Source of the DNA: Pseudanabaena sp. FACHB-1998
GTDB taxonomy: Bacteria > Cyanobacteriota > Cyanobacteriia > Pseudanabaenales > Pseudanabaenaceae
Direction of reading: 5' to 3'
DNA length: 64,000 nucleotides
Assembly: GCF_014696355.1 (NCBI RefSeq)
Contig: NZ_JACJQA010000043.1
Location: 1-64,000 of the forward strand
In this document: positions 29,310 to 53,140 of the stretch, piece by piece
Position numbering within the stretch: position 1 is the first letter of the stretch
Layout: each line of letters begins with the position of its first letter
Made by a program: the position numbers and the translations under genes
The notes under the pieces: model-generated
What the model saw: the letters and a program-made list of their open reading frames with translations, nothing else
The model's database searches: none
Told to the model about the DNA's origin: nothing

Positions 29310-29410
29310 AATTCACGAAAGTGTGACAACACTTTTGGGAATTAAAGACCAAACTCAGTAAGGATTTTCAAATGAAGAAATGGTGTAGCCATTTCTTCAT
29401 TTGAAAATCC
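29310..29410 (+). repeat. Two-hairpin dispersed repeat, copy B
   Basis: Hairpin 1 (AATTCACGAAAGTGT, GACA, imperfect right arm) is followed by the spacer AAACTCAGTAAGG. Hairpin 2 (29362-29410) has a perfect 22-bp stem around GGTGTAGCC. Confidence 0.85.
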
Positions 29411-29418
29411 TTTCCCAA

Positions 29419-29465
29419 CCAAGAAATAGCAGTGCGTGGCTTTGCCACGCACTGCTATTTCTTGG
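29419..29465. terminator. Perfect palindrome containing the larC stop codon
   Basis: A perfect 22-bp stem has a TTT loop and a GTGCGTGGC inner arm. The minus-strand larC C-terminal frame ends (TAG at 29455-29457) inside the right arm. Confidence 0.85.
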
Positions 29466-29950
29466 CTTTAGCATCTCCCGCGAGTTTGACCGCTTCCTGC
29501 ACTTGCCTTAATGGAACCTGATGCGATCGCGCTAACTTCGCACAGTCCTCATACTCAGGCTGAATTGTCGCAAAACCATCACGCCATGCAATTTTAATTC
29601 TCGCTTTTCCATATTTTGTTTCCACCTCATGGATTTCGCGATCGAGAATTTTGCGCTCCTGAAAGCGATATCGAATACCGAGAGTACTCGTCTCCCGAAA
29701 GAGAATCTCCTCGCAAATAGCAAGGCGATCACCTAGACAAATTACCGTAATTAATATACCAGTGCGCGATTTTTTCATGCCGATCGCTTGGGTATAGACA
29801 TCTAAAGCCCCATGCCGCAATAGCTCCTCCATCGTGAAGGCGATCGCCTGTGCGGTCATATCATCTACTTGGGTTTCGAGAATTGCGATCGTTTCTGTAG
29901 TGTGAAGAGATTCTCTCTTAGAGAAATGAATGTCTTCCAGATTTAGGCTT
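29455..29950 (-). CDS. larC: LarC C-terminal segment, reached by -1 frameshift
   Basis: An open frame in the -1 phase relative to larC1 runs without a stop from the A-run at 29949-29957 to 29455. From its first internal ATG (29859) it encodes 134 residues that match the C-terminal half of LarC: ETQVDDM, GALDVYTQAIGMKKSRTG, ETSTLGIR, REIHEVETKYGKARIK and PEYEDCAKLA. The conserved family segment ETxxDDM lies upstream of that ATG, so independent initiation would lose part of the domain. A frameshifted fusion is therefore the likely product. In Lactobacillus plantarum larC is likewise split and expressed by frameshifting. Confidence 0.8.
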
Positions 29951-30824
29951 TTTTTTTCTTACTCTTACCAATCCAGAGCCGCAGAGCATTAGGAATTTCT
30001 AAATCTTGAGAACCAGCCCCTAAACCGATTTTCTTGATTTTCATTAAGGGAACTTCGCCAAACTTCTCACTGAGAGTTACCGCGATCGCCGCACCAGTGG
30101 GCGTAACTAACTCTTTGCGAATTCCGTTATCGCAGATCGTGACGTTATGCATCTCCCATAATTTCAGTGTCGCAGGTGCAGGGACAGGCATTTTCCCATG
30201 ATCGCAATCCACATACCCCCCCCCCACAGGTAAAGCGGAACAATAAATTTTTTTGACTTCTAGCCATGCAAAGCCTGCACAGGTGCAGACAATATCGACG
30301 ATCGCATCAATTGCACCTACTTCATGAAAATGTACTGCTTCAGGAGCGATACCATGTACTGCTCCTTCCGCGATCGCTAGTTGACGAAAGATGGCTAAAC
30401 TCCTAGCTTCTATTTGTGGGGCTAATTTAGCCTCCCGAATGAGCTTCTCAATTTCTGGCAAATGGCGATGGGGAGCATGGGGATTTTGTTCATGGGAATC
30501 GTGATTATGTTCATGACTATGGGATTCATGGGCATGTTCTCCATGACTATGCTCGTGATGATGGCTATGAACTTCATGGGAATGCTTAGCGGCTACGGTT
30601 GGCGGTTCATCACCCGTATGATTTAACAATTCCACATGGAGTTTTGTTGCTTCAAGGCTGCCCCGAATTACTAGCTCTGTCCATAACTTAACTTCGGACT
30701 CTAGCCCTAATTTACGAACAATATCTTGCAAATATTCTAAAGGTACGCCCGCACTCACCAGCGCACCTAAACACATATCGCCAGCAATACCCGTTGGACA
30801 ATCTAAATAAGCAATATTTGCCAT
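29943..30824 (-). CDS. larC: LarC N-terminal segment (nickel-pincer cofactor cyclometallase)
   Basis: LarC inserts nickel into the pyridinium-bisthiocarboxylate precursor to make the nickel-pincer cofactor. This frame starts at ATG 30824 (MANIAYLDCPTGIAGDMCLGA) and runs 293 residues to a TAA at 29943. The HFHEVGAIDAIVDIVC and ALPVGGGYVDCDHGKMPVPAPAT segments are characteristic. A long His-rich loop (HSHHHEHSHGEHAHESHSHE) near residue 90 probably binds nickel. The frame ends in KSKKKKA just after nine consecutive A bases, a site where -1 slippage joins it to the C-terminal frame. No larB, larE or lactate racemase gene is in the window. Confidence 0.88.
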   Translation of the reverse strand: MANIAYLDCPTGIAGDMCLGALVSAGVPLEYLQDIVRKLGLESEVKLWTELVIRGSLEATKLHVELLNHTGDEPPTVAAKHSHEVHSHHHEHSHGEHAHESHSHEHNHDSHEQNPHAPHRHLPEIEKLIREAKLAPQIEARSLAIFRQLAIAEGAVHGIAPEAVHFHEVGAIDAIVDIVCTCAGFAWLEVKKIYCSALPVGGGYVDCDHGKMPVPAPATLKLWEMHNVTICDNGIRKELVTPTGAAIAVTLSEKFGEVPLMKIKKIGLGAGSQDLEIPNALRLWIGKSKKKKA

Positions 30825-46050: not shown

Positions 46051-46208
46051 TGTGGCTAAACTTGACACTAGTTAAGACGTTCTTCTTAGTTTAGCTTGAG
46101 TTTTATGGCTGTTGTTAGTATTTGCGATCGTAAAGGCATAAAGTTAGTAAGCAATAGTACCGTAGGAATAAAGGTGCGGAAGATTAGGGGGATATTTAAT
46201 AGCAAATC

Positions 46209-46263
46209 AAAACCGAAAACAAAAGAGGCGGCGCGAAGCGCCGCCTCTTTTGTTTTCGGTTTT
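46209..46263. terminator. Perfect 26-bp hairpin after ndhD
   Basis: The arm AAAACCGAAAACAAAAGAGG plus CGGCGC pairs completely with the right arm around a GAA loop. It is among the longest perfect stems in the window. Confidence 0.9.
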
Positions 46264-46267
46264 GAGG

Positions 46268-52965: not shown

Positions 52966-53029
52966 ATTTTATAAACTTATCGCTGTTTCTAAGGTAATCA
53001 TTAGTTGAGATAGCAATCCTATTTTATTT

Positions 53030-53140
53030 GTAAGGTTTTTTAAATTAAGAAATGACTACGTCATTTCTTAATTTAAAAAACCTTACAGGGTTTCATTACA
53101 AATTTACAAAGGTGTTGTCACACTTTTGTAAATTTGTAAT
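53030..53140 (-). repeat. Two-hairpin dispersed repeat, copy D (most complete)
   Basis: Hairpin 2 (53030-53086) has a perfect 27-bp stem with a TAC loop. Hairpin 1 (53096-53140) has a 21-bp stem with one mismatch and a TGTC loop. An AGGGTTTC spacer joins them. A TAGCAATCCTA motif resembling the IS630-like tip lies at 53011-53021. Confidence 0.85.

Follow-up and report, generated by a model that had tools for sequence, protein, structure and literature searches.

The two adjacent reading frames larC1 and larC2 in the window (the whole analysed stretch of 64 kb from Pseudanabaena sp. FACHB-1998) most probably belong to a single gene, larC, whose expression relies on programmed −1 recoding at nine consecutive adenines (A9). 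A probability of roughly 0.88 was assigned to this reading, irrespective of whether RNA polymerase or the ribosome does the slipping. The split, the run, the conservation of the run and the absence of a start codon for larC2 were read directly from the sequence. Two marks of a programmed −1 recoding gene are seen at the locus: overlapping frames offset by −1 are joined at a slippery site, and both the frames and the site are conserved across species.

The frame of larC1 (29943..30812, minus strand) encodes the N-terminal part of LarC including its His-rich loop, and matches positions 1–243 of PF01969 (which we take to be the family formerly named DUF111) with 299.8 bits. The frame of larC2 (29455..29949, minus strand), which is shifted by −1 against larC1, encodes the C-terminal part and matches positions 236–374 with 166.3 bits. 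Both matches are above the curated cut-off and are free of internal stops, and no further PF01969 copy was found in a profile search of the source genome. Among solved structures, larC2 has matches to 6bwo, a LarC2 (E 9.3e-25), and to 12bi, a full-length LarC (E 4e-24). The start of larC1 at ATG 30812 suits the family; the listed open reading frame could open at TTG 30839. The end of larC1 reads GGT AAG AGT AAG AAA AAA AAA GCC TAA (GKSKKKKA, then stop). The A9 run, as the candidate recoding site (29949..29957, minus strand), is read as AAA AAA AAA in the larC1 frame, and the zero-frame stop TAA of larC1 (29943..29945, minus strand) is located three bases past the run, after the single codon GCC. 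From A9 onwards, no stop interrupts the −1 frame until 29455. This frame takes in SLNLEDIHFSKRESLHTTETIAILETQVDDM and reads AGC CTA AAT CTG GAA GAC ATT CAT past the run and later GAA ACC CAA GTA GAT GAT ATG; its nearest upstream stop in the window is found four bases before A9. The initial annotation had described larC as split at this run, with a stop after KSKKKKA and a −1 frame open into the C-terminal half, and had pointed to a slippery A_AAA_AAA arrangement; the former is borne out by the sequence, and the latter is present in the phase 0 A9.

A start-codon scan of the larC2 frame in the window found no ATG, GTG or TTG ahead of the conserved ETQVDD. The earliest start codon is the ATG inside QVDDM, and its use would remove the conserved TETIAILETQVDD. 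Because no start codon precedes its conserved segment, larC2 must be read as a fusion. A G10 tract was observed inside larC1 (30216–30225, minus strand; CCT GTG GGG GGG GGG TAT, PVGGGYV), and is a second, possibly hypermutable homopolymer of the gene; the motif occurs in the window alone among the Pseudanabaena larC genes.

Among 25 relatives from the genus Pseudanabaena, larC is present in 24 and is split at the same place in all 24. Together with the window, this gave 25 larC genes, and every junction was read. Each of these 25 genes has larC2 in −1 relation and reads the run (A9 in 21, A10 in four) as AAA AAA AAA in the frame of larC1, and the zero-frame stop always follows 2–9 bases past the run. 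When compared with sister sequences, the four A10 runs look like the outcome of substitutions beside the run, with the split retained. Many of the compared genes carry a −1-frame TAA that overlaps the first two A's of the run, and the shift is therefore confined to the run. Lysine codons outside the junction comprise 379 AAA and 180 AAG (32% AAG) in the Pseudanabaena larC genes, and AAG occurs in all 12 conserved lysine columns, in some genome each; no AAG codon was found within the run in the 25 Pseudanabaena genomes. Insertion of a single A, which such a homopolymer would readily acquire and which would fuse larC, was seen in no Pseudanabaena. This absence of fusing insertions suggests selection for keeping the split, bearing in mind that the congeners share descent and that 25 genomes are not 25 independent events. 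The one relative with no larC match (G014, approximately 99% complete) has larB, and its missing larC reflects either loss or an assembly gap. Pseudanabaena biceps (G024) possesses a second, stand-alone LarC C half (L064, contig 17 near 476.6 kb).

The window contains one A9 when both strands are counted, and this is the larC run. A dinucleotide shuffle gave an expectation of 6.6, which would seem to indicate strong avoidance; this use of A9 rarity as evidence was dropped after a protein-preserving shuffle, by which 0.9 runs of at least nine A's are expected in the sense strands of the genes. A single A9 in the window is hence unremarkable by itself. What is remarkable about it, judging from the compared genes, is its position at the domain boundary together with its conservation in other species.

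The same A9 split was found in six genomes from other genera of the family, four of them in phase 0, one in phase 2 (G028) and one in phase 1 (G030). Both genomes of a further genus (g7; G031 and G277) have CCA AAA AAG followed by TAG or TAA, which corresponds to A_AAA_AAG, and the three genomes of the neighbouring genus g2 (G026, G033, G298) have a fused larC without the run. Several of the family genomes are metagenome bins. An A8 run with larC2 in +1 relation was observed in G304 (L069) and is either an assembly error or a site requiring another shift. A class-wide survey (390 genomes) gave a fused larC for most of the LarC matches listed. It also gave a second clade with A9 and a −1 split, comprising nine genomes of Crocosphaera and two allied genera (GAA AAA AAA ACA), and a lone species of another family (G234) with A9 and a −1 split (GCT AAA AAA AAA GAC TGA), the six congeners of which are fused. 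Apparent splits were left out if the break lay within the N half (G138, G229, G384), if no A9 was present (G065, L134) or if the gene was cut by a contig end. On the LarC tree, for which the bootstrap is not fully settled, the split label requires five changes, at least four of which are forced by well supported branches, and a constraint of all split genes to one clade was rejected. One member of the Crocosphaera clade (G403, L167) has a fused larC and retains the A9. By our own reading, its −1 frame stops at the same TAG as in its split relatives, and slippage would therefore yield the same two products with their roles swapped. Outside the cyanobacteria, the larC1/larC2 junction on a Lactiplantibacillus plantarum plasmid is GAA AAA AAA AAC TAA (A10) and larC2 again lies at −1, a larC copy of Lacticaseibacillus paracasei has A11 in one continuous frame, and larC of Niallia is likewise in two frames. 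The probable −1 frameshifting at A9 proposed in the initial annotation is strongly supported by the recurrence of split, run and −1 relation in every larC-bearing congener and in other lineages. The outcomes it had set against its own proposal, an A8 or A10 run giving one frame, or a short LarC1 as sole product together with a lack of C-terminal homologues in relatives, did not occur among the genomes compared.

That larC1 and larC2 are two separate genes is improbable; larC2 would then have a start of its own or be reached by reinitiation downstream of larC1, and LarC would assemble from two chains. No larC2 start lies ahead of ETQVDD in the window or in 19 further split genes, and a Shine–Dalgarno-like stretch precedes a start in just three genes; the conserved A run would, moreover, be left unexplained. 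Such an arrangement can draw on a TTG in the linker of some relatives and on a genome of another family (G252, L073; ATGACTAG), in which the ATG of larC2 overlaps the stop of larC1; LarC is apparently made there as two chains through coupling, so two chains may be workable. An error of sequencing or assembly in a homopolymer, with a true larC that is continuous, is very improbable: homopolymers are error-prone, but the same split is present in 24 other Pseudanabaena genomes, some of them closed (G002, G023), as well as in other families, and both the linker sequence and the position of the run agree between genomes. Phase variation by replication slippage, or a decaying pseudogene, would be compatible with the ease with which homopolymers mutate, with the split A10 and fused A11 copies in Lactobacillaceae and with the A8 of G304. 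It is nevertheless given a slightly smaller chance than separate genes, as all 25 Pseudanabaena genes are in the same state with both halves intact and conserved, and the four A10 runs, apparently products of substitution beside the run, have kept the split.

A weak imperfect stem-loop (GAAGACATTCATTT CTCTAA GAGAGAATCTCTTC; 29903..29936, minus strand) is located in the linker of the window, at the site of a strong hairpin in 11 congeners; the folding z-score of the window linker is −1.5, which is not significant. The strong hairpin, found in 11 of 25 Pseudanabaena, is a perfect or near-perfect stem of 17–25 bp that starts 1–10 bases downstream of the run. In the eight hairpins with a three-base loop, two-sided changes were found in 16 of 20 pairs, and in 3 and 1 with the partner slid. 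A downstream hairpin as universal stimulator was rejected, as it is strong in only part of Pseudanabaena, and no stimulator common to all sites was found among the compared split genes. The 64-kb window contains 20 long perfect palindromes (stem 13–28, mostly with a loop of 3; for example 29360–29412, 29419–29465, 46207–46265 and 53029–53087), and these are a family of dispersed hairpin elements. Because 18 of the 20 are located outside open reading frames, the larC hairpin may itself be a dispersed element sitting past the larC1 stop.

Programmed −1 recoding at the run could be carried out by either of two machines, both of which the initial annotation had rightly allowed for. RNA polymerase may slip on A9 and add one A (or lose two), so that part of the mRNA would encode a continuous LarC, and this is given close to an even chance. 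Alternatively, with odds somewhat short of even, the ribosome may perform a tandem −1 slip on A_AAA_AAA within A9, aided by the near stop and, in some species, by the downstream hairpin. The run has at least nine A's in codon phases 0, 1 and 2, although A_AAA_AAA needs just eight or seven bases in two of the phases (1 and 2), which argues for the polymerase and against the ribosome. The lack of AAG within the Pseudanabaena runs and the lack of a shared stimulator point in the same direction, and in many genomes selection acts against slippage-prone runs from a length of nine, the length that Thermus dnaX employs (PMC1088944). AAG at the third codon, which would give A_AAA_AAG, the stronger ribosomal site in Escherichia coli (PMC5009743), was never found at A9 sites. 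For the ribosome speak the in-frame X_XXY_YYZ heptamer in the phase 0 A9, the stops closely behind the run and the strong hairpin in 11 Pseudanabaena, but neither the other Pseudanabaena nor the remaining family members nor the Crocosphaera clade have the strong hairpin, and it may be a dispersed genomic palindrome. Chloroplasts, which are of cyanobacterial descent, offer a case of oligo-A recoding that required an uninterrupted A run, was ascribed to the ribosome and came without slipped cDNA (PMC8254509); this counts for the ribosome and against the polymerase. In genus g7 (two genomes) the homopolymer has just six A's followed by G, which counts against the polymerase; A_AAA_AAG stands there directly ahead of the stop, and the ribosome is the more likely slipping machine in this genus. 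At the A9 and A10 sites, insertion of one A by RNA polymerase is slightly favoured by the junctions as compared here.

Under programmed −1 recoding, normal decoding would stop just past the run and give a short LarC1, consisting of the N domain with its His-rich, presumably nickel-binding loop. A fraction of events would enter the −1 frame inside the run and give full-length LarC, which is predicted to use CTP in placing nickel into the nickel-pincer nucleotide cofactor. Both products are probably made, and the short one may be useful; there is no general need for it, as larC is fused in most cyanobacteria and, within the family, in genus g2. The initial annotation had asked whether larB and larE are encoded elsewhere: both were found in the source genome above the cut-off (283.6 and 310.1 bits, respectively), on other contigs than larC. 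A whole-genome search gave no LarA-type match. The presence of larB and larE without larA agrees with the reported synthesis of the nickel-pincer cofactor without LarA in many cyanobacteria, and the LarC of Synechocystis was active in E. coli, with CTP-dependent insertion of nickel (PMC11796402).

What began as a guess from a single sequence is thereby extended to recoding of a cofactor enzyme that is conserved across a lineage, and annotations that list two genes or a pseudogene are corrected. Between them, the cyanobacterial sites cover A9 in all three codon phases, A10, A_AAA_AAG and fused relatives, a natural series that could serve to separate slippage by RNA polymerase from ribosomal slippage in this phylum. 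A further point of interest is the role that a short His-rich LarC1 may have in organisms that, like many cyanobacteria, make the nickel-pincer cofactor without LarA. As far as the searched literature shows, three findings are new: the conservation throughout Pseudanabaenaceae, the second clade of cyanobacteria with the split, and the replacement of A9 by A_AAA_AAG within one family. It is conceivable, if rather doubtful, that the LarC domain boundary is a repeated recoding target, at which splits arose several times in cyanobacteria and Lactobacillaceae and were kept by selection because cells need His-rich LarC1 and full LarC in a fixed proportion; within one family, the slipping machine would then have switched between RNA polymerase at A9 and the ribosome at A_AAA_AAG.

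LarC of L. plantarum is made by programmed frameshifting from larC1/larC2. The cyanobacterial locus resembles it in family, in the domain boundary, in a poly-A junction with larC2 in the −1 frame and in a stop directly past the run; it differs in phylum, in the linker and in the site itself, which is A10 in phase 1 in L. plantarum and A9 in phase 0 here. Whereas the lar genes of lactobacilli form an operon with larA, no larA was found in the genome of the window, and larB and larE are on other contigs. The DUF111 cluster of GeneTack belongs to the same Pfam family and has −1 shifts predicted at conserved sites, and in a 2013 report the frameshifting of DUF111 genes reached as much as 39% in a reporter in E. 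coli (PMC3711429). The main text of that report names neither the species nor the site tested, and the cluster may already include cyanobacteria. The extension of LarC frameshifting to a cyanobacterium, as put forward in the initial annotation, accordingly holds in that Pseudanabaena is added, with the qualification that the Crocosphaera clade shares the trait and that the family, then called DUF111, had been tested in a reporter in 2013 (PMC3711429). A further parallel is dnaX, which has A9 with transcriptional slippage in Thermus thermophilus and A_AAA_AAG with ribosomal slippage in E. coli (PMC3711429, PMC1088944); both types of site occur here within one family. In dnaX it is the unslipped frame that leads to the long product, whereas in larC the long product comes from the slipped frame.
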